Assembly (NCBI GenBank): GCA_022651385.1
Contig: JALCQR010000003.1
Coordinates: 120,967 to 184,966 of the forward strand
Source: Clostridia bacterium
Lineage (GTDB): Bacteria; Bacillota; Clostridia; Lachnospirales; Anaerotignaceae
DNA: 64,000 nucleotides
Reading direction: 5' to 3'
Shown here: positions 1 to 40,680 of the stretch, in pieces
How the letters are laid out: each line of letters opens with the position of its first letter
Position numbering within the stretch: position 1 is the stretch's first letter
The notes under the pieces: model-generated
Told to the model about the DNA's origin: nothing
What the model saw: only the letters and a program-made list of their open reading frames with translations
Databases searched by the model: none
Position numbers and translations under genes: made by a program

Positions 1-322
1 CTATATAGGCATTTACAAAATATGAAGGATCATTGCTGAACTTAAAGTTTTTGTTTGTGCCCTCAAAAGCAACAAGCATGGTTTTAAAAAACGGCTGTGC
101 TTTCTCTTTATAGCTTCTTATAAACCTGCCGCCCCAAAATCCGACATGGTCATAAAGCTCTCTGAAATATCCCTTATACTCTCCGTAGACAATGTCATAC
201 TCAAACTTTATATATTCCTTTTGAGCGTTGTCCTCTGATGATTTTATCTGTACTATGTAACCGCCTGCCGGCAGCCTGTTCTCGCTTGCAGGTTTTACGT
301 TGTCCCAATTTATGTTAATCAT
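1..322 (-). CDS. Phage ssDNA-binding-like early protein (partial, runs off the left edge)
   Basis: An open frame starts at an ATG at 322 behind a CAGGAGG ribosome binding site and stays open for 107 codons to the window edge. The protein begins MINWDNVKPASENRLPAGGY and continues with beta-rich stretches (GGYIVQIKSSEDN, EYIKFEYDIVYGEYKGY). This resembles the small DUF669-like or single-strand-binding proteins that sit beside AAA_24 recombination ATPases in phages of Firmicutes. It lies 16 bases downstream of the AAA_24 gene on the same strand, so the two are co-transcribed. The role in ssDNA binding is inferred from context and overall look, and the C-terminus is not visible. Confidence 0.6.
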   Translation of the reverse strand, partial: MININWDNVKPASENRLPAGGYIVQIKSSEDNAQKEYIKFEYDIVYGEYKGYFRELYDHVGFWGGRFIRSYKEKAQPFFKTMLVAFEGTNKNFKFSNDPSYFVNAYI

Positions 323-338
323 TTGCTTGTCCTCCTGT

Positions 339-980
339 TTAATACTCTTCAAGTGCTTTTACAACCTGAACTATGTCGTTATCAATCTCAAAACTTTCAA
401 AAGCTCCCATAGGACTTTTTGCGGTACTGTTGTTTGCCTGCGTTTCCAAAATGTATCTGTTGCCTGACTTTTTGCTTAAAAGCACCGTTGTAAACTTGCT
501 TTCAAGACAAATCTTGTTAAGCTTTTTCCCGTTTGTCTTGATACGTGTAAACATATATCCGCTGTCATCCATATCAGTCTGCGTGTGAGCTGTAAAAATG
601 ATTGTCAAATCATCTCTGCAGGCATTGGCATAAACTATTAAGCCATACACAGACTGCGCCAAGTCCTGCCATTTGTCATAACCTTTTTCTTTTATACGTC
701 TCATTTCATCATCAATCATTATTCCGTTTAAAGTATCAATTACAACATATTTAAACAATGTTTGTGTCTCGTTTATTCTTTTTAAAGCACTGCGAATCTT
801 TTCCGTGTTTGATGTGCGGACATAATTTTTGTTCGCTTTATTGTACTGACTGCGCCAACCTTTCCAGCTTAAACCTTTGCCGTCACAATCTATGTAAAAT
901 GTTTCAGACGGGTTCAGATTGCGCATTGCCGTTGTTTTTCCGCTGCCGCTCTCGCCCATAATACATATAACCTTTGCCAT
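339..980 (-). CDS. Phage AAA_24-family ATPase, Sak4-like recombination protein
   Basis: The 213-residue protein has a Walker A loop at residues 9-16 (GESGSGKT) and a Walker B strand near residue 80 (YVVIDT). The length and layout fit the AAA_24 family of phage ATP-binding proteins, which includes the Sak4 single-strand annealing/RecA-like proteins. Sak4 proteins work with a phage SSB, and the neighbouring downstream gene looks like one. The gene lies between a Gp157-family gene (985-1473) and that SSB-like gene in a leftward early operon. The ATPase fold is seen directly; the recombination role is inferred from family and neighbours. Confidence 0.75.
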   Translation of the reverse strand: MAKVICIMGESGSGKTTAMRNLNPSETFYIDCDGKGLSWKGWRSQYNKANKNYVRTSNTEKIRSALKRINETQTLFKYVVIDTLNGIMIDDEMRRIKEKGYDKWQDLAQSVYGLIVYANACRDDLTIIFTAHTQTDMDDSGYMFTRIKTNGKKLNKICLESKFTTVLLSKKSGNRYILETQANNSTAKSPMGAFESFEIDNDIVQVVKALEEY

Positions 981-984
981 GCTG

Positions 985-1473
985 TCACCTGATTCTTAAA
1001 CTCTTGCCTTGCACTAACTGCGCAAAGTCTAATTGTGTGCCTTCCTTTAAGGCATTTTTAATGCTTTCCGTGTCTGCCTTAGGCGGCTGCGGTATTAAAT
1101 ACCGTTCAGGTATTTTTTTACCATTTATAAGCTGTACGGCAGGAGGATTTTTTTGAATTGTAAAACTGAATAAATCCGTTTTTATCTTTGTTTTTTCCAT
1201 GGCTTCCATTGAATTAAATATGTTCCCTTTGAGCCATTTAACACGGTTTTCAAGAGTTTTTCTGCGGCTGCTCAGCCTTGTTTCTTCTTCCTTTAACCCA
1301 TTGATATCGGCAGATATGTTCTTGATTATCTTGCCGTACCCGTCAGCCTTTTCAGACAGTTCACACTCTATGCACTGTAAGGTATTTTCAAGAGTGTCAA
1401 GGTCAATGTCGTCATTTTCAAGGTATTCAAATACGTTATTAAAATCAGCTGTCAGTTCGTAAAGTTTAGCCAT
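985..1473 (-). CDS. Siphovirus Gp157 family protein
   Basis: The 162-residue protein has a long coiled-coil region (residues about 45-100) rich in Lys and Glu. It ends with the Gp157-type tail, in which an FSFTIQKNPPAV segment precedes IPERYL and IPQPPKADTESIKNALKEG. Gp157 of Streptococcus phage Sfi21-type viruses is an early protein linked to phage resistance when expressed from plasmids; its biochemical role is not settled. A GGAGGAAAAAA site precedes the ATG. It is 4 bases upstream of the AAA_24 gene, an arrangement common in siphovirus early regions. Confidence 0.85.
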   Translation of the reverse strand: MAKLYELTADFNNVFEYLENDDIDLDTLENTLQCIECELSEKADGYGKIIKNISADINGLKEEETRLSSRRKTLENRVKWLKGNIFNSMEAMEKTKIKTDLFSFTIQKNPPAVQLINGKKIPERYLIPQPPKADTESIKNALKEGTQLDFAQLVQGKSLRIR

Positions 1474-1521
1474 TTTATTTTTTCCTCCTTTGTGCTATAC
1501 TAAATTTGAATGTTTTACTGT

Positions 1522-1552
1522 GCCGCTTTTGGGATTGCCGTCCCTAAGCGGC
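1522..1552 (-). other. Strong two-step hairpin in the phage early operon
   Basis: Seven-base arms (GCCGCTT and AAGCGGC) enclose an inner GGGA/TCCC pair and a short loop. The hairpin lies directly after the stop of the 1559-1774 gene and before the Gp157 gene. A T-run follows only on the plus strand; on the minus strand, the direction of transcription, no U-tract follows. A plain terminator is therefore unlikely, and an RNA processing or stability element is possible. Confidence 0.5.
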
Positions 1553-1558
1553 TGTTTT

Positions 1559-1774
1559 TTATAAACAATATTTTGTAATATTATCTATACACCCTTGTGC
1601 AATGGCTTTTTTCGTACACTTAATCTCGCCACCGTCTTCATACTCTAAGCCATTTATGCAACCTATCAAAGCGCCAACAATAGCACTAACTACGTCTATA
1701 GCCTCCCCTTTGGTTCTTATATTTGCCTTTCCATTGTTGTTGCATTTTATAGATACCTTCACACGCTTTTTCAT
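1559..1774 (-). CDS. Small phage protein of unknown function
   Basis: A 71-residue frame starts at an ATG preceded by a GGAGGGG sequence and lies in line with the other leftward early genes. It has a basic N-terminus (MKKRVKVSIKCNNNGK), a small hydrophobic stretch (VVSAIVGALIGC) and several cysteines. Short Firmicutes phage proteins of this look exist, but none with a known role is recognised here. Its support is the ribosome binding site, the operon position and its codon use. Confidence 0.6.
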   Translation of the reverse strand: MKKRVKVSIKCNNNGKANIRTKGEAIDVVSAIVGALIGCINGLEYEDGGEIKCTKKAIAQGCIDNITKYCL

Positions 1775-1807
1775 TTTTTCACCCCTCCGGTAATTTGCCT
1801 TGGTATC

Positions 1808-2551
1808 TCATAAAGCAATAACAACAGAATTATTTTCAATTTCTGACTCAAACTTATCATCAAGATAAGCCTTTATGGTCTTGCGTGCTGTTAATTTCCA
1901 CATTCCGCCGTCTGCCTCAACAAAATTAATTCCGCGCTCGTTTATTCGTATTAAGAATTCACTTTCAGGCTGTTCAACTTCCTGAAATGTTCTGTATGGT
2001 TTCAGCTTTACAATAGGTTTAATTGCGTCATTACTCTGTAATGCAATGCCTTTTTTTGTTACAACACTTGTTGCCAACCCGTTATCGTTGTATGTTACCT
2101 GTGCCCCTGTTGTAATATCAGACAGCAATTTTAAGGCATATATTGTATCTGCCGTATCCTGAAAACGAGTTCTTAATGCAATCATGGCCTGTTCAAAGCT
2201 TAACTGCGTACTCGGTTCCCAACCCGGTACGTCTGTCGCTTTTGCAATATAATATGTAGGTCTTATACAATGCCCCGAGTGCTCAAAAGGCTGTGTAAAA
2301 CACTCTACTTTCTCATGTGTTGGTACTGTTATATAAAGAGGTGTAACGTCACTGTATTTTGGTATACCTTCCGTTTTTACCATTTTTATAAGAGCATCAA
2401 GACTGTTTAAATTCAGAACATCAGGAAATATAACATCAGGAAATATTTCGCTGTATTTTCCGTCGTTTGTTACTACAAATAAATGTCCGTCAATCTCTTT
2501 CAATGTTGGTGCTGCCATTGCTTCAATTTTTTCGATTGCTTCTTTAATCAT
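1808..2551 (-). CDS. Conserved phage protein (DUF2303/YfdQ-like)
   Basis: The chosen start is the ATG at 2551 because AAGGAGG lies 7 bases upstream; an earlier in-frame Met at 2584 would overlap the previous gene and lacks such a site. The 247-residue product carries the motif set of a widespread Firmicutes phage protein: a PSTQLSFEQAMIALR segment mid-protein, KPYRTFQEVEQPES near residue 185, and FVEADGGMWKL near the C-terminus. The family is related to YfdQ/DUF2303 and is found in phage recombination and replication regions. Its molecular function is not known. Confidence 0.75.
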   Translation of the reverse strand: MIKEAIEKIEAMAAPTLKEIDGHLFVVTNDGKYSEIFPDVIFPDVLNLNSLDALIKMVKTEGIPKYSDVTPLYITVPTHEKVECFTQPFEHSGHCIRPTYYIAKATDVPGWEPSTQLSFEQAMIALRTRFQDTADTIYALKLLSDITTGAQVTYNDNGLATSVVTKKGIALQSNDAIKPIVKLKPYRTFQEVEQPESEFLIRINERGINFVEADGGMWKLTARKTIKAYLDDKFESEIENNSVVIAL

Positions 2552-2577
2552 TTTTATTTCCTCCTTAGAATTTATAA

Positions 2578-2946
2578 TTAACAAGATTTAACTAACTTAA
2601 GTGTTACTGGCTGGTCTTGTTCCTCACCATACAAATTCATTTGACCGGGTATTTGCGGCACCATTTCAACTACTTGAACATCGCTGTTCGAGTCAGAACC
2701 TGCAATATACAAATTCGTGCGTACAGGATTAGTAGACGCAAGCGCGCTCTTTGCGGTAAACTTAACACTTACATTGCTGCGTGAATCATCCGGCGCAAGC
2801 TCCATTGTAATAGTCAATTTGCGCTTGTCTGTGGCCTTTGTGTTTGGATCCATGATGTTGTCAATAATCCTGCTCATTTCGTAATCGGCACGCTCTATAA
2901 AAGCACCGTGCGCCATTTCAAGAATGGATTTTTTTAGATCTTCCAT
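2578..2946 (-). CDS. Conserved phage protein (often labelled replication terminator protein)
   Basis: The 122-residue protein has the pattern of a small phage family: an N-terminal helix (GAFIERADYEMSRIIDNI), DPNTKATDKRKLTITMEL, then beta strands with a KSALASTNPV segment. Proteins with this pattern are often named replication terminator protein in annotations, without proof. It lies 26 bases upstream of the YfdQ-like gene, and the two are found together in other Firmicutes phages. A GGAGGAGAAAT site precedes the ATG. The family match is by pattern memory; the function is unknown. Confidence 0.65.
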   Translation of the reverse strand: MEDLKKSILEMAHGAFIERADYEMSRIIDNIMDPNTKATDKRKLTITMELAPDDSRSNVSVKFTAKSALASTNPVRTNLYIAGSDSNSDVQVVEMVPQIPGQMNLYGEEQDQPVTLKLVKSC

Positions 2947-2948
2947 TT

Positions 2949-3185
2949 TTATTTCTCCTCCTTAATAAAATTAATTATTTCTTTGTTCATGGCCTTTGTT
3001 AAAGACCCATAATCATAACCTTTGCTGTACCCTTCATCATAGCCTTTATAGTATTGGCGATATTTTTCATATTCGTTTTCTTGGCTCTGCTGTTTTATTT
3101 TGTCTCTTAATTTGTCGTTTTTGTAATCTGCATAAAGCCAGCCGAGAATTGCTGTGCCAAACAAGATTGTTAATACAGGTATCAT
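2949..3185 (-). CDS. Small membrane-anchored phage protein
   Basis: A 78-residue protein has one N-terminal transmembrane helix (residues 3-20, PVLTILFGTAILGWLYAD). A charged helical part follows, with a tyrosine/glycine-rich repeat (YYKGYDEGYSKGYDYG). It starts 2 bases after the stop of the upstream gene and ends 2 bases before the next start, so it is tightly packed in the early operon. A GAGGAGGGATAAGC ribosome binding site precedes the ATG. No function is recognised. Confidence 0.6.
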   Translation of the reverse strand: MIPVLTILFGTAILGWLYADYKNDKLRDKIKQQSQENEYEKYRQYYKGYDEGYSKGYDYGSLTKAMNKEIINFIKEEK

Positions 3186-3187
3186 GC

Positions 3188-3409
3188 TTATCCCTCCTCT
3201 GACAGATATGCTTCAATCTTTTTTGCAGTAGCCTTTCCAATACCTTTTATTTTGCCCTCCTTTACTGCGTAAATAACTCCGGCCGCACCGTCTGTAATGC
3301 CGACTTTATACGCCTTAGTGCATAAGCCCTGACAGAATTCACTCATTTGGCCATGGTCCATTTTTTTAACCTGCTTGTATCTGTCTCTATTCAAAACAAA
3401 CGCTTTCAT
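3188..3409 (-). CDS. Small phage protein with a helix-hairpin-helix-like C-terminus
   Basis: The ATG at 3409 is preferred because AGAGGTGG lies just upstream and because a longer reading to 3484 would overlap the neighbouring gene by 62 bases. The 73-residue product ends with KEGKIKGIGKATAKKIEAYL. This resembles a helix-hairpin-helix DNA-binding motif of the GIGxxxAxxI type. Such a motif suggests contact with DNA backbone in replication or recombination, but that is inference. It belongs to the leftward early operon. Confidence 0.6.
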   Translation of the reverse strand: MKAFVLNRDRYKQVKKMDHGQMSEFCQGLCTKAYKVGITDGAAGVIYAVKEGKIKGIGKATAKKIEAYLSEEG

Positions 3410-3422
3410 TTTCCCACCTCTC

Positions 3423-3662
3423 TTAATGAGGTCCTTTTTGTATGTTTCGTAAAGCTTGAGAAAAATTTGAAACCGCTTCATCAAGCTTTATAGGCTTAAT
3501 TTCTGGATAATCATAGTCAGGCAAATCATTGTCATAGTAACTAAGTGTTACACTTGCAGCTTTCGTAAGAGCTCTCAACTCTTCAGGAGTTGCATTTTCC
3601 TTGTTTGCGGTCCTGACAATTAAATCCGTCAAAGCATTTAAAATCTTTTCTTTGTTTTCCAT
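3423..3662 (-). CDS. Small phage protein of unknown function
   Basis: A 79-residue, mostly helical and acidic protein (MENKEKILNALTDLIVRTAN) with a clear AAGGAGGCACAAAA site before the ATG. The middle is rich in Asp, Tyr and Pro. It lies in the leftward early operon between a possible non-ATG gene (3583-3876) and the HhH-like gene. No family is recognised. Confidence 0.6.
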   Translation of the reverse strand: MENKEKILNALTDLIVRTANKENATPEELRALTKAASVTLSYYDNDLPDYDYPEIKPIKLDEAVSNFSQALRNIQKGPH

Positions 3663-3876
3663 TTTTGTGCCTCCTTGAATACTTTAGTCTTGTGAACCAG
3701 TACCATAACAAATCCTTAATTGTGCTGGTCCGTACTTTTGAAATAGGACATTCGGCAAACATAGGATACTTGCCTCCTAAATCCTTTAATAGCCGGATTT
3801 TTTTAATTCCAAAGAGCCCTGTTTCAATTTCAATAACATACTTGCCGGATGAAACGGAAAAGTCTATACAAGTCGT
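3583..3876 (-). CDS. Possible small phage gene with an ACG start codon
   Basis: A minus-strand frame of 97 codons opens at ACG (3876-3874), 8 bases after a GGAGG. No ATG, GTG or TTG is in frame between the upstream stop and this point. The predicted product, beginning with CIDFSVSSGKYVIEIETG after the start, reads like a real beta-rich protein (VIEIETGLFGIKKIRLLKDLGGK). The tail overlaps the next gene by 80 bases, which suggests a lost stop codon. An internal ATG at 3759, also behind AGGAGG, is an alternative start. It may be a decaying gene or one that uses a rare start. Confidence 0.4.
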   Translation of the reverse strand, partial: TTCIDFSVSSGKYVIEIETGLFGIKKIRLLKDLGGKYPMFAECPISKVRTSTIKDLLWYWFTRLKYSRRHKNGKQRKDFKCFDGFNCQDRKQGKCNS

Positions 3877-3919
3877 TTTTCTCGCCTCCTTCGTTTATGC
3901 AAGCAGAACACTGAAATAA

Positions 3920-4096
3920 TCAGTTTGTTACTGCATACTTTTTTATGAAGCTTTCAACAGAGCTTTCAGGTATGTACATCTTCTTTGTGCTGTAAACCAG
4001 ATATGTTAATTTTCCGGACTTGCAAAGATTCCGCACAGTCTGTGGAGATGTGGAAAGCAGTTCTGCAACTTCTTTTACGGTCAATAGCTGTGCCAT
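3920..4096 (-). CDS. Excisionase-like helix-turn-helix protein
   Basis: A 58-residue protein starts at the ATG at 4096, with an AAGGA-type site upstream. It reads MAQLLTVKEVAELLSTSPQT and continues with VRNLCKSGKLTYLVYSTKKM, then IPESSVESFI. This is the HTH_17/MerR-like winged helix of small excisionases and DNA-binding proteins: helix 1 TVKEVAELL, recognition helix SPQTVRNLC, wing GKL. It lies 17 bases downstream of the Cro-like gene. A directionality factor for the integrase at 5744-7021 is the likely role, inferred from family and location. Confidence 0.75.
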   Translation of the reverse strand: MAQLLTVKEVAELLSTSPQTVRNLCKSGKLTYLVYSTKKMYIPESSVESFIKKYAVTN

Positions 4097-4113
4097 ATTA
4101 GCATCATCCTTCC

Positions 4114-4323
4114 TTAGCTCGCTTTGTCCGGCTTAAAGAAATCTTCCGGAGGTGTTTTTAAAAATTTACAAATTAATAAAAATTCATCGGCTCTTAATTT
4201 CCTCTTGCCACTTATGGAATTATGTAAAACGTTCCGTGAGAGCCCCGTGTGTCTTGCAATAGTGGAAACTGTTATTCCTTGCTCTTTTATGTAATTAGCT
4301 ATTTCTTTTGTAACGTTAGGCAT
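4114..4323 (-). CDS. Cro-like HTH regulator
   Basis: The start at 4323 follows AAGGAAGG by 8 bases; upstream in-frame codons run through the promoter and operators and are not used. The 69-residue protein has one Xre-type helix-turn-helix (residues about 17-52): GITVSTIARHTGLSRNVLHN followed by SISGKRKLRADEFLLICKFL. It is transcribed leftwards from the promoter at 4367-4395, divergently from the CI-like repressor. By position it is the Cro-equivalent that opens the lytic early operon. Confidence 0.8.
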   Translation of the reverse strand: MPNVTKEIANYIKEQGITVSTIARHTGLSRNVLHNSISGKRKLRADEFLLICKFLKTPPEDFFKPDKAS

Positions 4324-4366
4324 TATATATCTTCCTTCCTTTGTCGCTATTTTAGCTACTAAATAA

Positions 4367-4395
4367 ATTATATTCTTTGTTTTAGCGAATGTCAA
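4367..4395 (-). promoter_or_regulatory. Leftward early phage promoter
   Basis: On the minus strand, TTGACA (4395-4390) and TATAAT (4372-4367) are separated by exactly 17 bases, a consensus sigma-A promoter. A TTCGCTAA operator-like half-site lies in the spacer. The promoter would drive the Cro-like gene and the whole leftward early operon. Confidence 0.85.
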
Positions 4396-4412
4396 TATCA
4401 TTTTGAAAAATA

Positions 4413-4433
4413 TTTTCGTCAAATTAGCGAAAA
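4413..4433. promoter_or_regulatory. Candidate repressor operator
   Basis: A dyad of TTTTCG and CGAAAA arms around an A/T-rich centre lies between the two divergent promoters. The TTAGCGAA half-site recurs at 4382-4389 within the leftward promoter spacer, and TCGCTA occurs at 4344-4349. Repeated half-sites in this position are typical of CI/Cro operators. Confidence 0.6.
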
Positions 4434-4438
4434 AAACA

Positions 4439-4467
4439 TTGACTTGCTTTGCAATGCAATTTATAAT
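4439..4467 (+). promoter_or_regulatory. Rightward promoter of the repressor gene
   Basis: TTGACT (4439-4444) and TATAAT (4462-4467) are 17 bases apart. The promoter faces the CI-like repressor gene at 4499, with the AAGGAG ribosome binding site about 10 bases before the ATG. It is back to back with the leftward early promoter, the usual lysogeny switch. Confidence 0.85.
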
Positions 4468-4498
4468 TAACTTATAGAAAAATTAAGGAGATACCAAA

Positions 4499-4948
4499 AT
4501 GACAAAAGGTGATATCGCAAAACTTTTAAAGGATAGCAGGATTAAAGCAGGTTTTGAAGCTAAAGAAGTAGCTGAAAAACTAATTGAATTAGGCGCTATC
4601 AAAAGCGTTAAATCATTTTATAATTGGGAGAGTGGAAGAACTCAGCCTGACGCAGACACATTTATGTACCTTTGCAACCTTTACAAGATAAAGAATGTCC
4701 TCGAAACATTCGGCTATAAAGGTTTTGATGACGTGCAAGAAGTATCCAACGCCTACGAAAAAGCGGACATAAAGACTAAAAATATAGTTCGTTACGCTCT
4801 TGGTTTGCCAACATTAGATGAAGAAGAACCAAAAGTTAAACTTGCAGCACGAGGCGGATATATAGAGCTGACTGAAGATGAAGCAAAAGACTTAGCTGAA
4901 AGCGCTAAAAAAGCTCCTGATGAATCAGGAAATAAAGATTTGTTCTAA
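4499..4948 (+). CDS. CI-like phage repressor (Xre family HTH)
   Basis: The 149-residue protein has an N-terminal helix-turn-helix (residues about 3-60) with the typical WESGRTQPDADTFMYLCNLY segment. A linker and a short acidic C-terminal part follow. No serine/lysine peptidase dyad is visible, so self-cleavage of the LexA/lambda CI type is not expected. The next gene is an ImmA/IrrE metallopeptidase, which in Bacillus ICEBs1 inactivates the partner repressor by cleavage. The same partnership is inferred here. It is transcribed from the promoter at 4439-4467. Confidence 0.8.
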   Translation: MTKGDIAKLLKDSRIKAGFEAKEVAEKLIELGAIKSVKSFYNWESGRTQPDADTFMYLCNLYKIKNVLETFGYKGFDDVQEVSNAYEKADIKTKNIVRYALGLPTLDEEEPKVKLAARGGYIELTEDEAKDLAESAKKAPDESGNKDLF

Positions 4949-5033
4949 TAATTTCCAGTAATATAATGCATATTTTTCGACAAAATTCTACAATTTTCTT
5001 GAATAATAAAGTTCAGGAGGCTTGTAGAATACT

Positions 5034-5621
5034 ATGTATAACGAATACAAGAAATCGAGAAATAAGGCGTGGGAGGTATTATTAGACTGTGGAATTAAAA
5101 GTTTACCTGTTGATTTAGGTTTAATTGCTCGGCGTTATAACTTAAAAATTGTAGCATATTCAAAAACCACCCTTTTTCAGGTGTTCAATACTGCTGTTAA
5201 GAATGGCGACGGTTTTATTGCTAAAGTAGATAATCAAAAAGAAATTTTTATAAATGATAAGATAAATAATCGAAATCGCCGGCGCTTCACTCTTGCACAC
5301 GAATTAGGGCATGGACTTTTAGAACATAATATCGGAAAAATCCATTACCGGAACAGTGAAATTGACAACCAAAGCAACATACAAGAATTTGAAGCAAACA
5401 TATTTGCGAGAGACATTCTAATGCCTACTACAGTATTAGCCGCGCTGAATGTACATACAGTGGAAGAAATAATGAATTTGTGTGATATATCTCGTTTGAG
5501 TGCAGAAATAAGGTTAAAACGGCTTGTAGAATTATATAAAAGAAATATGTTTAATATACACCCACTTGAAAAACAAGTGCGAAAACAATTTAGTGAATTT
5601 ATAAATACATACCAAAAATAA
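5034..5621 (+). CDS. ImmA/IrrE family metallopeptidase
   Basis: The 195-residue protein carries the zinc protease motif HELGH at residues 89-93, with a downstream Glu-containing segment (QEFEANIFARDILMP) that supplies the third ligand in this family (M78/DUF955). ImmA of ICEBs1 and related phage proteins cleave the neighbouring repressor when the host signals DNA damage or activation. The gene lies 85 bases after the CI-like repressor on the same strand. An AGGAGG site lies about 16 bases before the ATG, rather far; GTAGAATACT fills the gap. It probably controls prophage induction. Confidence 0.85.
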   Translation: MYNEYKKSRNKAWEVLLDCGIKSLPVDLGLIARRYNLKIVAYSKTTLFQVFNTAVKNGDGFIAKVDNQKEIFINDKINNRNRRRFTLAHELGHGLLEHNIGKIHYRNSEIDNQSNIQEFEANIFARDILMPTTVLAALNVHTVEEIMNLCDISRLSAEIRLKRLVELYKRNMFNIHPLEKQVRKQFSEFINTYQK

Positions 5622-5632
5622 ATAAAAAAAAT

Positions 5633-5652
5633 CCCTCTGTTCCAGCAGAGGG
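5633..5652 (+). terminator. Terminator after the immA-like gene
   Basis: CCCTCTG and CAGAGGG form a 7-base stem with a TTC-type loop, flanked by A-runs on both sides. It separates the repressor/immA unit from the integrase gene. Confidence 0.6.
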
Positions 5653-5743
5653 AAAAAGTGTAGATAGAAAGGCTTAATATAAAAGTTCGTTTATACTATA
5701 GCACTTTCTTCCACTAACGAAAAGCCAAAAGAGGTGCATTTTC

Positions 5744-7021
5744 ATGAAAACTGTAAGAGTAAAGAAACGTGGTAATTTGTATCAGTACGAGTTTGAGTTA
5801 GGCATGGTCAGCGGCAAACGTAAGACTTGTACAAAGTCCGGTTTTGCGACCGAGGAAGAAGCCTACAATGCAGGCATTAAAGCAATGTCAGAATATAACG
5901 CAACTGGTACAATATATAAGCCATCTGATATGGCGTTGATAGATTATCTTGACTGGTGGTATAAACGCCAAATAGAAACAGATAAGCGCCCAAATACACA
6001 AATTAAATATAAAACGGCTATTGATACTTTTATAAGGCCAAGTTCAATAGCAAACATTAAGCTTAAAAATCTTACGCCATTAACGATTGATAAATGGATA
6101 AATCAAGCTGCACAAGAAACATACATGAGTAACGGTATAAACAAAAATTACAGCCAATCTACAATCAATGGAGCCTTTAATTTAATGAAAGGTGCTCTAA
6201 AGTACGCCGTATACCCTTCAATGTATATAAAGGAAAATCCGGCTATTTATGTAAAGCCGCCAAAAGTAAGTAAGCCTACTGAAAAGCGGAACATCATAAG
6301 TGTACATGATTTCAATGTAATATGTGAAAAGTTTCCGCGATTAAAAGTAAGTCTTATGGTTGGCTTTTATACTGGTATGCGAATCGGCGAGATATGTGCT
6401 CTTACATGGCCGGATATAGACATGGATAACAGAATAATACATGTTTCAAAACAGCTAAATCTCTATAAAGGAAAATATATGTTTGCAGAACCAAAAACAC
6501 AAACATCAAATCGAGACATTTTCTTTGGAGAAACGCTATTCCAGTATTTTAAAACCTTAAAGAAACAACAAGCCGAAAGTCGATTAAAATATGGAGAATA
6601 TTATATCATGAATGTCATAAATGAAAATAATACAATAACGCCAGCTTATGCAAACTCAGTTGCAGGTAAAAAATGCGCTGATTTTGTGGTATGCCAACAA
6701 GGCGGCAAATTTTATCACTCAAAAGAGTTACAACACTATGACGGCCAAATTTCTGACATTCTTGGTTATAAATTTAGTTTTCATTGTTTGCGCCATACGC
6801 ATGCAACAATGTTACTCGAAGCAGGTGTCGATATGAAGCTTGTACAAGAAAGACTTGGACATTCTTCCATTGTTACTACAGCAGATACCTACTCTCACAC
6901 AACAAAATCTATGGCAAAAAATGTTGCCGGCAAACTTGACTCTTTTTTGCAGACAGATTGCGGACAAGTTAAGAACACAGATATTGAAAATGATTTTGCA
7001 GACAAAATGCAAACAAATTAA
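5744..7021 (+). CDS. int: Tyrosine site-specific integrase
   Basis: The 425-residue protein has an N-terminal Arm-DNA-binding domain (residues 1-55), a SAM-like core-binding domain (about 60-170) and a C-terminal catalytic domain. Active-site residues are visible: Arg213 (TGMRIGE), His347 and Arg350 (FHCLRHTH), His373 (LGHSS) and nucleophile Tyr383 (DTYSHT). It is the size of Tn916/phage-type integrases of Firmicutes. An AGAGG site precedes the ATG. The gene is the last of the prophage, and its 3' end points at the 6S RNA gene, the likely attachment site. Confidence 0.93.
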   Translation: MKTVRVKKRGNLYQYEFELGMVSGKRKTCTKSGFATEEEAYNAGIKAMSEYNATGTIYKPSDMALIDYLDWWYKRQIETDKRPNTQIKYKTAIDTFIRPSSIANIKLKNLTPLTIDKWINQAAQETYMSNGINKNYSQSTINGAFNLMKGALKYAVYPSMYIKENPAIYVKPPKVSKPTEKRNIISVHDFNVICEKFPRLKVSLMVGFYTGMRIGEICALTWPDIDMDNRIIHVSKQLNLYKGKYMFAEPKTQTSNRDIFFGETLFQYFKTLKKQQAESRLKYGEYYIMNVINENNTITPAYANSVAGKKCADFVVCQQGGKFYHSKELQHYDGQISDILGYKFSFHCLRHTHATMLLEAGVDMKLVQERLGHSSIVTTADTYSHTTKSMAKNVAGKLDSFLQTDCGQVKNTDIENDFADKMQTN

Positions 7022-7156
7022 TATATTTTTTTGTCATAAACCACGCAAAGCCTTGATTTTACTAACAATATATTCTTATTATGATATATAATATGGATAT
7101 GCCGTAATTAACAAAAAAATTATAAAAAACCCCGGGATGCCGTTCCTGTTTTTTGA

Positions 7157-7176
7157 CACCTAACCTAAGTTAGGTG
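7157..7176. repeat. Perfect 8-base inverted repeat at the 6S RNA 3' end
   Basis: CACCTAAC and GTTAGGTG flank a CTAA loop. An outer GACACC/GGTGTC pair overlaps the arms, so two alternative hairpins are possible. The dyad sits where the integrase element meets the 6S gene. It could be part of the 6S terminator or the integrase core site. Confidence 0.55.
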
Positions 7177-7315
7177 GGTGTCCGCAGGATACAATTTCTG
7201 CCTTCCTCCGCCCAAAGGGAATTAGTAAGAGGCCTGGCATAAATGCACCAATGTTGGACTCCCGTATTAATAATGTAGGTTCAAAATAAACAGGCTATCG
7301 TACACCCCAGGAAAT
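7165..7315 (-). ncRNA. ssrS: 6S RNA
   Basis: Read on the minus strand, the segment has the 6S layout. A closing stem pairs GGGTGT (7307-7302) with ACACCC (7181-7176). The 5' half has the block TTTGAACCTACATT, then AATACGGGAGTCC. The 3' half returns with TATCCTGCGG just before the closing stem; the E. coli molecule has a matching CCTGCGGC. A long hairpin with a large open bubble mimics a promoter and binds housekeeping RNA polymerase. The gene starts within about 10 bases after the lspA stop, so it may be co-transcribed and processed or have its own promoter inside lspA. The exact 3' end is uncertain. Confidence 0.8.
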
Positions 7316-7320
7316 TTTTC

Positions 7321-7773
7321 CTAGTTCTTTTTACATGACGTAAAAGTAAATAATACAGCAGACACAACTCCGACAAAAATAGCTATATCAGCTAAATTAA
7401 AAATAGGAGCATTTTTGATTTTTACAAATATAAAATCCGTAACACAGCCGTTTTTGATTCTGTCAAAAAGATTAGATGCCGCACCGCCTATAGCAACCGC
7501 ATAAAAAAGCTTAATCATCTTCATGCCTTTTATCGGTATTAAAATCAAATAGCTCAAAACAGTAAAAACAAAAACAATTGTGGTTAATATTTTAACAAAT
7601 TTTGGATTGTCACTGCAAATACTGAACGGAAAACCATAATTTTTTCTATGCCAAAAATACAGTTTATTTTTTATTATTTCTTTTTTTTCTTCTACATTCA
7701 GATTGCTGCAGACAATTTTTTTCGAATAAACATCTGCTAATATTATAATCAGAGGGGATAAAAAGTATACCAT
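7321..7773 (-). CDS. lspA: Lipoprotein signal peptidase (signal peptidase II)
   Basis: The 150-residue membrane protein has four hydrophobic segments. The two catalytic aspartates of the family are visible: Asp104 in NLFDR and Asp129 in FNLADI. The enzyme removes signal peptides from diacylglyceryl-modified prolipoproteins in the membrane. The usual GAAFG-like block is replaced by a divergent NYGFPFS, so this is a divergent member. It is followed directly by the 6S RNA gene and is divergent from the aldolase gene. Confidence 0.88.
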   Translation of the reverse strand: MVYFLSPLIIILADVYSKKIVCSNLNVEEKKEIIKNKLYFWHRKNYGFPFSICSDNPKFVKILTTIVFVFTVLSYLILIPIKGMKMIKLFYAVAIGGAASNLFDRIKNGCVTDFIFVKIKNAPIFNLADIAIFVGVVSAVLFTFTSCKKN

Positions 7774-7934: not shown

Positions 7935-8882
7935 ATGGCTTTAGTAACAACAAAAAAAATGTTTGAAAAGGCTTTCAAGGGACATTACTCAATAGGAGCT
8001 TTTAATATTAATAACATGGAAATAATACAGGGAATTGTTGAAGGCTGCAAAAAGCACAACAGCGCAGTTATACTTCAGGTATCAAAGAGCGCATTAAAAT
8101 ATGCTCATCCCCTTTACATTAAGAATATGGTTGAAGCCGCAGTTGAAGAAACAGGTCTTGACATTGCACTTCATCTTGACCACGGTCCAAGTTTTGAAGT
8201 ATGCAAAGAGTGTATAGAATACGGTTTTACATCTGTAATGTTTGACGGTTCACACCTCGATTACGAAGAAAACATTGCAAAAACCAAAGAAATAGTTGAT
8301 TACGCACATGCAAAAGGAATAGTTGTTGAGGCAGAACTTGGAAAACTTGAAGGCGTTGAAGACGAAGTAAAAGTTGCGGCAGGAAACGCTTCATATACTG
8401 ACCCAGACCAAGCTGTTGATTTTGTAAAAAGAACCGGCGTTGATTCTCTTGCTGTAGCCATAGGAACAAGCCACGGAGCATATAAATTCAAAGGAGAGGC
8501 AAAGCTTGATTTTGAAAGGCTTCAGACAATAACAGATAAGCTTGAATCGGCAGGATACCATAATTACCCTATAGTATTGCACGGAGCATCTTCCGTTGAC
8601 CAAAAATCTGTTGCCACATGCAATGAGTTTGGAGGAAACATAAAAGGAGCAAAAGGCATACCTGTTGAAATGCTCAGAAAAGCATCATCAATGGCAGTCT
8701 GCAAAATAAATATGGATACGGATATCCGTCTTGCAGTTACGGCAGCTGTAAGAAAATCTCTTTCGGAAAAACCTGATGCCTTTGACCCAAGAGGATATCT
8801 TGGCGCAGCAAGAGAAGATATTGTTACGCTTGTTGAGAAAAAAATCACTGATGTTCTCGGAAGCGAAGATTCTATGAAATAA
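7935..8882 (+). CDS. fba: Class II fructose-bisphosphate aldolase
   Basis: The 315-residue protein is a zinc-dependent class II aldolase. Metal and substrate motifs are visible: the zinc-binding HLDHG near residue 82, EAELGKLEG near residue 134, SHGAYKFKG near residue 180 and HGASS near residue 217. It splits fructose 1,6-bisphosphate into glyceraldehyde 3-phosphate and dihydroxyacetone phosphate in glycolysis. Related tagatose-bisphosphate aldolases share the fold, so specificity is not proven. It has its own promoter and a terminator at 8908-8929. Confidence 0.9.
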   Translation: MALVTTKKMFEKAFKGHYSIGAFNINNMEIIQGIVEGCKKHNSAVILQVSKSALKYAHPLYIKNMVEAAVEETGLDIALHLDHGPSFEVCKECIEYGFTSVMFDGSHLDYEENIAKTKEIVDYAHAKGIVVEAELGKLEGVEDEVKVAAGNASYTDPDQAVDFVKRTGVDSLAVAIGTSHGAYKFKGEAKLDFERLQTITDKLESAGYHNYPIVLHGASSVDQKSVATCNEFGGNIKGAKGIPVEMLRKASSMAVCKINMDTDIRLAVTAAVRKSLSEKPDAFDPRGYLGAAREDIVTLVEKKITDVLGSEDSMK

Positions 8883-10524: not shown

Positions 10525-10854
10525 TTATTGGCAACTTCCAAGCATTATACCGCAGTAACCTAAAACAGCCAAAATTCCAAATATTACACAAATAAGTACC
10601 AAACGGCCATGCTTTTCATTTGTATTTTTCTTTAAATCATAAATTAAAATAAAAACAGCAACCAACGCCAAAATAAACGTTGAAGGCATACAACATATTC
10701 TTATAATTCGATAAAGAATTCCAGTTTCTTTGACTGAACTCAAATTAAAAAAAATCAAAGGAAATATTATATATAGCATACAAATATAGCACATTGATAA
10801 AATAATAAACGCCCTCAAAATATCATGTTTTTTTATCGTAATCATTCCCACCAT
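10525..10854 (-). CDS. Array membrane protein, family I copy 6 (immunity candidate)
   Basis: This 109-residue protein with about three membrane segments is the last of six family I copies. Shared features are a CMPSTFILALVAVFILI helix, a cytosolic basic LKK-NEKH loop and a final VIFGILAVLGYCGIML helix. Its ATG overlaps the TAA of the upstream copy (TAATG), so translation is coupled. It is the intact counterpart of the frameshifted copy at 11575-11897. A poly-immunity role is inferred from the toxin-like gene at the head of the array. No family name is recognised. Confidence 0.65.
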   Translation of the reverse strand: MVGMITIKKHDILRAFIILSMCYICMLYIIFPLIFFNLSSVKETGILYRIIRICCMPSTFILALVAVFILIYDLKKNTNEKHGRLVLICVIFGILAVLGYCGIMLGSCQ

Positions 10855-11144
10855 TATACCCGCAAAATTATTTCAAGCATTATACCGCAGTAACCTAAAA
10901 CAGCCAAAATCCCCAATATTATATAAGTAAATATCAGCCACATATATTTTTCATTTATAGCTTTCTTCTTCATAGCTCGAACTAAAATAAAAATTGCCAC
11001 AAGCCCTAAAATTAATGTTGTCGGCATGCAATATATAACAAATACATAATAACACATAAAAAAATATACTAAATACAGCAAACTTATGTAACATATGGAT
11101 AGAATAATTGAAAGTTTAAAAATTTTAGGTTTATTTATATTCAT
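10854..11144 (-). CDS. Array membrane protein, family I copy 5
   Basis: The ATG at 11144 follows GAGGT by 7 bases. The 96-residue protein has the family I pattern (CMPTTLILGLVAIFILV, then the INEKYMWLIF loop/helix and a final GILAVLGYCGIMLEI). The C-terminal 60 residues are nearly identical to the copy at 11897-12196, and the DNA matches base for base over long runs, so the duplication is recent. It is part of the C-B-A block derived from the D...F-E block upstream. Confidence 0.65.
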   Translation of the reverse strand: MNINKPKIFKLSIILSICYISLLYLVYFFMCYYVFVIYCMPTTLILGLVAIFILVRAMKKKAINEKYMWLIFTYIILGILAVLGYCGIMLEIILRV

Positions 11145-11189
11145 AATATACCTCATTATATATTAAAAGCGTAAATCACTTTGCAATTT

Positions 11190-11624
11190 CTATCTTCGCC
11201 CATATACAAGTGCAAACCAAAAGAAAACCGTAATCAGTATACCGGATACTCCGAAAAAGCCAAACAGGATACAGTTATAATTTCGATAATACTTTGCTAT
11301 AAATTTTTCAAACAATAATGACTCTAATATTAAAAATACATCTACAACTGTGGCTGCTGTCAATAAAAAATACATAGAAACAAAAAAGCCACTTTCAGAG
11401 ATATAAGTCAACGGTTTTAATGGAAGCATCAAAATATTAAAAACAATATCCATAATATCATTTTCACACAAACTGAATAGCAATGATATAAAAAATACAG
11501 CCTTATATACCTCAAATACAATTAAAATAATGTTGAGCTTCTTTAAAAAGATTCCATTTATATCACCTGCCCGCTCAAACTCGAGGTGCCAAAAATATAG
11601 CCAGAAAGTATGCTGCAACAGCAA
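11190..11624 (-). CDS. Array membrane protein, family II copy 2 with a lost start codon
   Basis: The part homologous to the copy at 12973-13335 begins at 11561, with INGIFLKKLN instead of MNGSFLKKLN. Beside the shared AGGTGATATA, the TTG start triplet of the other copy is missing, a clean 3-base deletion. Reading must then begin at a rare ATA or at TTG codons (11624 or 11618) inside the preceding frameshifted gene. The family has two to three membrane helices and a strongly conserved FEKFIAKYYRNY-CILFGFFG segment. It may be poorly expressed or dying. Confidence 0.5.
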   Translation of the reverse strand: MLLQHTFWLYFWHLEFERAGDINGIFLKKLNIILIVFEVYKAVFFISLLFSLCENDIMDIVFNILMLPLKPLTYISESGFFVSMYFLLTAATVVDVFLILESLLFEKFIAKYYRNYNCILFGFFGVSGILITVFFWFALVYGRR

Positions 11625-11897
11625 AAATTCCTAATACTGCGCAAATAAACACTATCCACGCATGCTTTTCATTAATTATATCTTTCTTTAAAGCAAATAC
11701 TAAAATTAAAACAGCTACTAAACCCAAAATAAACGTTGAAGGCATAAAATATATACATATAATTTGATAAAGAATTCCCGTCACTTTGATTGAATTCAAA
11801 TTATAAAGGATTAAAGGAAATATTAAATATAACACATTGATAAAATAATAAGCAACTTGAAAATATCATGTTTTTTTATTGTAATCATCCCCACCAT
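11575..11897 (-). pseudogene. Array membrane protein, family I copy 4, frameshifted
   Basis: Alignment with the copy at 10525-10854 places the true start at the ATG at 11897, overlapping the TAA of the upstream copy. After 24 codons a 13-base deletion relative to the intact copy (after ...TGTTATATTT) creates a TAA. The rest stays readable in another frame from a GTG at 11835 and ends APRV. The deletion is between short TATAT-like repeats. The break is seen directly. The remaining 86-codon frame retains the FMPSTFILGLVAVLILV helix. Confidence 0.75.
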
Positions 11898-12196
11898 TAT
11901 ACCCGCAAAATTATTTCAAGCATTATACCGCAGTAACCTAAAACAGCCAAAATCCCCAATATTATATAAGTAAATATCACCCACATATATTTTTCATTTA
12001 TAGTATTTTTCTTCATAGCTCGAACTAAAATAAAAATTGCCGCAAGCCCTAAAATTAATGTTGTCGGCATACAATATTTAACAAATATATTATCTGAAAA
12101 TACAAAAATATATAGGTTCATAAAATTCAACAAGCTTATGTAACATATGGATAGAAAAATGTTTATTTTTAAAAGCTTTGATTTGCTAATATTCAT
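11897..12196 (-). CDS. Array membrane protein, family I copy 3
   Basis: The 99-residue protein starts at an ATG at 12196 just after AGGTGATG; two in-frame starts lie within 6 bases. It has three membrane helices with the family pattern YCMPTTLILGLAAIFILV, INEKYMWVIF and GILAVLGYCGIMLEI. It is almost identical to copy 5 (10854-11144) over the C-terminal two thirds, while the N-terminal loop differs (NLYIFVFSDNIFV). Divergence in the predicted external loop with constant helices fits immunity proteins under diversifying selection. This is inference. Confidence 0.65.
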   Translation of the reverse strand: MNISKSKLLKINIFLSICYISLLNFMNLYIFVFSDNIFVKYCMPTTLILGLAAIFILVRAMKKNTINEKYMWVIFTYIILGILAVLGYCGIMLEIILRV

Positions 12197-12218
12197 CATC
12201 ACCTAAAAAATTAATGAT

Positions 12219-12575
12219 TTAAGCTCCCAAAAATGTAACAGAAATGTTCACCCAAACAAACATTACAACTCCAATAATTCCAAATACCACACAAATAAAT
12301 ATAAACCATGCATATTTTTCATTTATTATATTTTTCTTTAAATCAAAAATTAGAATTAAAACGGAAACTAATTCTAAAGAAAACATTATAGGTATACCGA
12401 ATCTTCCAAAAATATCAAATATATCGCAAATCCCGTAAATTATATTCAATACAGGCTTAATATTTAAGAGTGCCAAAATTAATAATATATATGGCAAGAG
12501 TATACAAAAAGCAGACAATACAATTAATAATTTTAAAATTCTTTGCTTTTTTATAATCTCATCCCCTAAAATCAC
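12219..12575 (-). CDS. Array membrane protein, family I copy 2
   Basis: The 118-residue protein reads from a GTG at 12575; no perfect Shine-Dalgarno is present, though an AGGGGATGAG inside the first codons aligns with the binding sites of other copies, so the true start may lie slightly later at a non-ATG codon. The helices and the LKKNIINEKYAWFIF loop follow the family I pattern. It is the most divergent copy, with a C-terminus ending VTFLGA. Same strand and close spacing place it in the array. Confidence 0.6.
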   Translation of the reverse strand: MILGDEIIKKQRILKLLIVLSAFCILLPYILLILALLNIKPVLNIIYGICDIFDIFGRFGIPIMFSLELVSVLILIFDLKKNIINEKYAWFIFICVVFGIIGVVMFVWVNISVTFLGA

Positions 12576-12586
12576 TATGATACTAT

Positions 12587-12925
12587 CTAAATTAAACTAA
12601 ATATAATCATAAGCATGATACCGCAATAAATCACATTTGACAATATTCCCAAGAATGCATATACAAATATAGGCCATCTGTATTTTTCAGTTATTTCTTT
12701 TCTCTTTAAAACATGAACTAAAATATAAACAGCCACAAGTCCAAAAATTAATGTCGTTGGAATGCAATATATGTTAAAAATAGAATAAGAAATTTTATCT
12801 AATACATCGTCTATTTCCCCTCTGTACATTAACATAAAAAAATACGCAAAATATAGTAAGCTTATGTAAAATACAGACAGAAATATTGATATTCTAATAA
12901 TTTTAGGTCCTTTTACAATCATCAT
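12587..12925 (-). CDS. Array membrane protein, family I copy 1
   Basis: Starts at an ATG at 12925 (or the adjacent ATG at 12922) behind GGGAGA. The 112-residue protein has an N-terminal helix (FLSVFYISLLYFAYFFMLMY), an acidic external loop (RGEIDDVLDKIS), the YCIPTTLIFGLVAVYILV helix, a KRKEITEKYRWPIF segment and a final helix. The pattern is shared with five other copies downstream. No named family is recognised. Confidence 0.65.
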   Translation of the reverse strand: MMIVKGPKIIRISIFLSVFYISLLYFAYFFMLMYRGEIDDVLDKISYSIFNIYCIPTTLIFGLVAVYILVHVLKRKEITEKYRWPIFVYAFLGILSNVIYCGIMLMIIFSLI

Positions 12926-12972
12926 TTCTCCCAATTAAAATATATATTTTATATTAAACAGCTTCAGTTGGC

Positions 12973-13335
12973 TCATCTTTGCCCATATATAAGCATATAC
13001 CAAAAGAAAACTGTAATCAGTATGCCAGATACTCCGAAAAAACCAAACAGGATACAGTAATAATTTCGATAATACTTTGCTATAAATTTTTCAAACAATA
13101 ATGATTCTAATATTAAAAATATATCTATGCCAATAGCTAAAGTCCCTAAAATATACATAAAAGCTGATATACTGTTGTAATTAAGATATTTTAGCAATGT
13201 AAAAGGTAATAAAAGAACATATAGTGCTATATCTATGTCGCATGACACTAATATCAACGATATAAAAATTGCAATTTTATAGACCTCGATTACAATAAAA
13301 AATATATTTAGTTTCTTTAAAAATGAACCATTCAA
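12973..13335 (-). CDS. Array membrane protein, family II copy 1
   Basis: The start is a TTG at 13335 behind AGGTGAT. The 120-residue protein has three or four membrane helices and the conserved stretch ESLLFEKFIAKYYRNY followed by CILFGFFGVSGILITVFFW. It begins 3 bases before the stop of the toxin-like gene, so the two are translationally coupled; immunity genes often follow their toxin in this way. It is the best candidate for the cognate immunity protein. A second copy is at 11190-11624. Confidence 0.65.
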   Translation of the reverse strand: MNGSFLKKLNIFFIVIEVYKIAIFISLILVSCDIDIALYVLLLPFTLLKYLNYNSISAFMYILGTLAIGIDIFLILESLLFEKFIAKYYRNYYCILFGFFGVSGILITVFFWYMLIYGQR

Positions 13336-40433: not shown

Positions 40434-40680
40434 ATAAAAAAAGGCTTTCGTCCAAACAAAAGGACGAAAACCCGCGGTACCACCTTAATTTCCGTAAAAT
40501 ACGGACACTCACGGCTTTAACGCTGCCGGCGGATATGCCTAATGCAAAAAGCTTTCTCAGCATATCGGCTCGCGGACTACATTCGGCTTACTTATACTAA
40601 AGAACCTCACAGCCGAGGGTTCTTTTCTCTGAAAGCTTTATAAGCCTACTCTTTCCGGTCACTGCCATTGAAATTATATA
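40434..40680 (-). promoter_or_regulatory. T-box riboswitch of valS
   Basis: On the minus strand the leader has a long stem I (GACCGGAAAGAGTAGG near its 5' end), the T-box core AAGGTGGTACCGCGGG at 40486-40471, and a terminator of GTTTTCGTCC/GGACGAAAGCC followed by TTTTTTT at 40440-40434. Uncharged tRNA pairs with the core and prevents termination. Two GUA valine triplets lie on the 3' side of stem I (40597-40595 and 40591-40589); either could be the specifier. The leader is immediately before valS, which agrees with a valine codon. Confidence 0.93.

Follow-up and report, generated by a model that had tools for sequence, protein, structure and literature searches.

When the integrase gene of a prophage ends close to the 3' end of a 6S RNA gene, is the RNA gene the attachment site of the phage, or its neighbour? 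This question is raised by a Clostridia bacterium whose draft genome (2.6 Mb, 19 contigs) contains, on contig C3, the stretch of 64,000 nucleotides analysed here, which we call the window (C3:120967-184966); positions without a prefix are those of the window. The far end of the prophage was sought in C3:20001-132000. Targeting of a tRNA or tmRNA gene is marked by a regenerated or displaced 3' end of that RNA gene. We conclude that this phage very probably used its own tyrosine integrase to enter the spacer that separates the 6S RNA gene from a protein-coding gene, here called gene X, and that 6S RNA was a neighbour and not the recognised target.

The prophage, its ends and the gene pair that it separates

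The right-hand part of the prophage occupies positions 1-7099; phage families were found on either side of the window's left edge, and the ends of the element are bounded by a 16-bp repeat. Its tyrosine integrase (425 aa; 5744-7021, plus strand) carries Phage_integrase, SAM-like and arm-binding domains in Pfam (PF00589, E 5.2e-25; PF14659; PF14657) and matches phrog_1 (E 2.2e-76). The same strand encodes an M78 peptidase with an IrrE N-terminal-like domain (5034-5621; PF06114, E 1.2e-17; phrog_1914) and a repressor-like protein (4499-4948) with a weak phrog_3 match (E 9.7e-6) and no Pfam match. Genes for terminase, portal, major head, tail sheath, tape measure and endolysin lie, like that of the integrase, between both copies of the repeat, and to judge by the tail-sheath gene the element would be a temperate phage with a contractile tail. 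The left end has adjacent minus-strand genes for a HEPN_RiboL-PSP protein and for an AAA_21/AbiLi-like ATPase (C3:93381-95442; L005:13381-15442), a candidate defence pair carried as prophage cargo.

The initial annotation had placed the end of the integrase gene about 100 bases from the 3' end of a 6S RNA gene facing it, and this proved accurate: the two genes are convergent and 103 bp apart, so that the right end of the prophage does lie beside 6S RNA. A covariance search confirmed the identity of the RNA, which matches RF00013 over the whole model (1-187 of 187) with 78.2 bits, above the gathering score of 46.4; no other 6S match turned up in the 2.6-Mb draft genome. The gene extends over 7125-7316 on the minus strand; the extent first proposed, 7165-7315, thus lay within a real 6S RNA gene and stopped short of its 3' end. 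Upstream on the same strand lies lspA, encoding signal peptidase II (7321-7773; PF01252, E 5.5e-27), and beyond it, on the opposite strand, a class II fructose-bisphosphate aldolase gene of the host flank (7935-8882, plus strand; PF01116). Elsewhere in the window we noted a T-box leader (RF00230, 125.8 bits; 40457-40671, minus strand) and a run of several small membrane-protein-like ORFs, alike by eye and apparently a local paralogue family (10525-13335, minus strand).

When positions 7000-7330 were compared with C3:20001-132000, the direct repeats of at least 12 bp comprised one of 16 bp and nine others of 12-14 bp. The 16-mer, ATATATAATATGGATA, occurs exactly at 7084-7099 and at C3:92953-92968. 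Its right copy sits in the spacer, 25 bp downstream of the 3' end of 6S RNA, and its left copy is intergenic, between a host gene (C3:90612-92936, minus strand) and an ORF on the prophage side (C3:93381-94103). Between 7022-7140 and C3:92900-93800 it was the sole exact direct repeat longer than 10 bp (the next best being 10 bp), and only 1 of 1000 dinucleotide-shuffled pairs of junctions reached a match of 16 bp or more. The sequence is AT-rich and of low complexity, and the bare 16-mer was found in at least 120 virus-contig stretches. We infer that it is the crossover core, which makes 7084-7099 the probable att core of the right end. With one copy of the core counted, the prophage covers about C3:92953-128049, i.e. 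35.1 kb, its far (left) end lying about 35.1 kb leftward on the same contig as the window. A search within the family with the DNA of the left junction returned short matches in four other genomes, and the two that were examined resemble chance matches of AT-rich sequence.

The host gene outside the left repeat is gene X, which encodes a protein of 774 aa with SpoIID/LytB and SLH matches; beyond it lies a gene for a Mg-chelatase-type protein. In 24 of the 34 family relatives with a 6S match, gene X stands downstream of 6S RNA on the same strand, with a gap of 86-441 bp by coordinates, a count that omits weak, partial matches to gene X. Of the remaining ten relatives, two have gene X on a different contig, two have it far off, and six gave no strong match. 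Conversely, 6S RNA was present in 15 of the 19 gene-X loci scanned in the same family, each time directly upstream and on the same strand. The comparison is at the family level; the relatives searched included none from the same genus, so that no true empty site was seen. The prophage thus splits a widely shared pair of genes, and because this pair is separated here, the gene order supports the ends of the prophage independently of the repeat. A possible second split, in relative G026, where 6S RNA and gene X share contig and strand and are 20 kb apart, was rejected: judged from their starts, the intervening ORFs look like housekeeping genes, and none matched the integrase of this prophage (phmmer, E 10).

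Gene X itself was also followed beyond the family. Among at least 80 loci in named genomes, the best gene-X segments reached 25-37% identity, versus 43% for the best family relative; the named matches, among the at least 80 loci listed, are largely from Clostridia. Relatives of gene X were not found in viral contigs.

Where the crossover took place

We considered the possibility that the true crossover lies further inside the left end of the prophage, at about C3:93200-93380. C3:92969-93200 would then be spacer of the host, including a strong hairpin found at C3:93166-93199, and integration would have carried the terminator of 6S RNA and the promoter of gene X to the far end of the prophage. 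The length of the spacer speaks for such an arrangement. If the empty site is joined at the 16-mer, the spacer measures 57 bp; each of the 24 relatives has a longer one, counted as far as the point where its gene-X match begins. Furthermore, by a strict pattern applied without a chance control, a terminator hairpin was present in the spacer between 6S RNA and gene X in 12 of 15 relatives, and by the same pattern, again without a chance control, it was absent from the joined empty site and from the 6S side of the lysogen. A promoter-like TTTACA-17-TATATT also precedes gene X at that place.

To these observations may be added the alignment of the relatives' spacers with C3:92969-93230, which was better than that of shuffled sequences for one of nine (G012, P 0.025, uncorrected); yet the other eight comparisons gave P values of at least 0.17, and the 57-bp spacer that we favour did about as well (one of nine below 0.05; G008, P 0.015). 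With one of nine below P 0.05 in each case, the spacer alignments do not separate the two placements of the crossover. Against the placement further inside, C3:93200-93380 and 7022-7140 share no exact direct match as long as 9 bp, and the 16-mer would have to be present by chance, as in 1 of 1000 shuffles.

Two accounts of the short spacer face each other. In one, the lineage has shortened its spacer, and 6S RNA would end at its closing stem, seen in the fold, followed by a T-rich tract. In the other, which we regard as unlikely, the phage recombined further inside and the hairpin at C3:93166-93199 is of host origin. The T-rich tract (minus strand, 7113-7129) is located at and after the end of the closing stem and remains on the host side of the 16-bp core.

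Whether 6S RNA is the target, and the setting of the integrase

There remains the claim from which this analysis started, that 6S RNA is the attachment site, here in its strict form: as with tRNA and tmRNA genes, the phage would use the 3' end of the RNA gene and restore or duplicate it. The facing genes and the 103 bp between the integrase gene and the 3' end of 6S RNA favour this idea, but we regard it as very unlikely. The longest piece of 6S sequence at the far junction is 8 bp (10 bp across the wider C3:92400-93800), and the best repeat lies outside 6S RNA. No phage record matched 7022-7316 either (blastn, E 0.01). The initial annotation had proposed looking for a direct repeat of 7100-7180 at the far end; a repeat does exist, but its copy beside 6S RNA maps to 7084-7099, outside that interval. 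By the refuting condition set in that annotation, the claim does not hold in its strong form. The core ends at 7099 and 6S RNA at 7125, so that the repeat does not overlap the 3' end of the RNA gene; 6S RNA is full length, with its T-tract on its own side of the core, and with 10 bp at most in C3:92400-93800 and a single 6S match in the genome, no displaced fragment of the RNA gene was found at the far end. As no repeat of 6S RNA longer than 8 bp is present at the far junction, the 3' end of 6S RNA is not a target in the sense known for tRNA and tmRNA.

The palindrome at 7157-7176, which had been thought to mark the junction, could likewise be rejected in that role. It is a hairpin inside 6S RNA, all eight pairs of which form in 16 of 16 aligned 6S sequences of the family. 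Six of the pairs are invariant; of the remaining two, one shows changes on a single side and the other on both (in two sequences). The observed covariation score was reached in 4 of 500 shuffles and the count of doubly changed pairs in 128 of 500, and for this reason the support for the hairpin is mostly conservation.

The weakest explanation, that we are dealing with an assembly artefact or an old remnant and not with a prophage placed by its own integrase, could appeal to the draft state of the genome with its 19 contigs, but it is hardly credible: both junctions lie within a single 273-kb contig, the reading frame of the integrase is open, structural genes are present, and a virus contig encodes an identical integrase, though it perhaps comes from the same organism.

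This virus contig (L069; IMG/VR, 33,865 bp) starts at the position matching C3:94123, inside the ends of the prophage, and its match to the integrase stops 3 bases short of where the contig ends. The contig thus seems to have been trimmed at gene boundaries and says nothing about the att sites. Related integrases (E 1e-50) were found in 11 other genomes of 392, with 34-41% identity and, in 2 of the 11, an internal stop. These 11 loci, several of them truncated where a contig ends, contained no tRNA and gave no Rfam match; L069 likewise gave no Rfam match. Searches of the integrase against plasmid records and against phage records gave no match above 60% identity.

How unusual is the address? 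The initial annotation had stated that 6S RNA is rarely noted as a target. This is partly fair, but complete prophages beside ssrS are among the top three integration hotspots of Acinetobacter baumannii in the passage available from PMC11998280. The two cases are alike in that complete prophages lie next to the 6S gene; the host group differs, and since that passage describes no att core, overlap with 6S RNA is not comparable. The islands and prophages of tRNA and tmRNA genes covered by Islander (PMC4383910) share with the present element a tyrosine integrase, direct repeats and an end near the 3' end of a structured RNA, whereas here the repeat lies in the spacer and the 3' end of an RNA gene is not regenerated. 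In the TIGER database, tRNA, tmRNA and intergenic sites jointly account for 56.6% of islands, according to the passage from PMC12884075. Relative to the elements with intergenic attB in that passage, which have the same kind of intergenic core and break no gene, we see no difference in kind; only the neighbouring gene is unusual here.

Passages from PMC7641849, PMC2222628, PMC12884075, PMC5918138 and PMC3339403 (in the last of which SSRs are simple sequence repeats) contain no mention of integration beside 6S RNA; among the passages, that from PMC11998280 alone does. Other reports of a prophage beside 6S RNA were not found among the open-licence matches listed. A profile built from the integrase itself and seven homologues (E 1e-3) detected no 6S-adjacent integrase besides its own in 131 sources. 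These comprised 80 order-level 6S places, 29 6S loci and 19 gene-X loci, most of them flanked by 1.5 kb, as well as L001, L270 and L271. The 80 places (two of them in one genome) were taken from among the matches listed, 6S RNA being present in 348 of 392 genomes, with places from the own family excluded; 1 kb upstream to 5 kb downstream was requested for each, and 5 of the 80 are clearly shorter owing to contig ends. The profile covers tyrosine, not serine, integrases and is unbenchmarked for distant ones, so that this absence is only a rough guide. A clostridial 6S motif gave no match in viral contigs, a narrow test, since host DNA has often been removed from virus contigs.

Possible consequences for gene X

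If the phage used the 16-mer, as we favour, the empty site would have had the order 6S RNA, 25 bp, core, ribosome-binding site and start codon of gene X, and the tyrosine integrase of the temperate phage would have inserted it between these two genes of the same strand. Integration would leave 6S RNA and the T-tract that follows it intact, and would swap the DNA upstream of the ribosome-binding site of gene X for phage DNA. In the lysogen, a -35-like element in the phage arm completes a TTTACA-17-TATATT before gene X, which agrees with the sigma-70 consensus at 10 of 12 positions, whereas nothing in the joined empty site exceeds 8 of 12; its TATATT is half core and half host. Chance readily produces such sites in this AT-rich region (12 found, 5.3 expected), so that this putative phage-arm promoter is a lead only. 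In the relatives, the last 60 bases of the spacer before the gene-X match contain CATATATT in 5 of 15 cases and CATATTAT in 1 of 15, a motif that is perhaps a shared -10 element of gene X.

Taken as a whole, this is a fairly ordinary prophage with a slightly unusual address, integration next to ssrS being already known in A. baumannii from the passage cited (PMC11998280). It adds a case, outside Acinetobacter and with a candidate att core, of a prophage beside 6S RNA, and it illustrates that proximity to an RNA gene does not show that the gene is targeted. A bolder reading, to which we give little credence, is that the att core overlaps the promoter end of gene X, such that lysogeny would change what drives gene X and the prophage would act as a switch. 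Excision would then return gene X, a conserved SpoIID/SLH gene tied to 6S RNA in the relatives, to read-through from 6S RNA or to a weaker promoter. If such a change in the control of gene X held, the locus would be a small example of lysogeny rewiring a conserved neighbour of 6S RNA.
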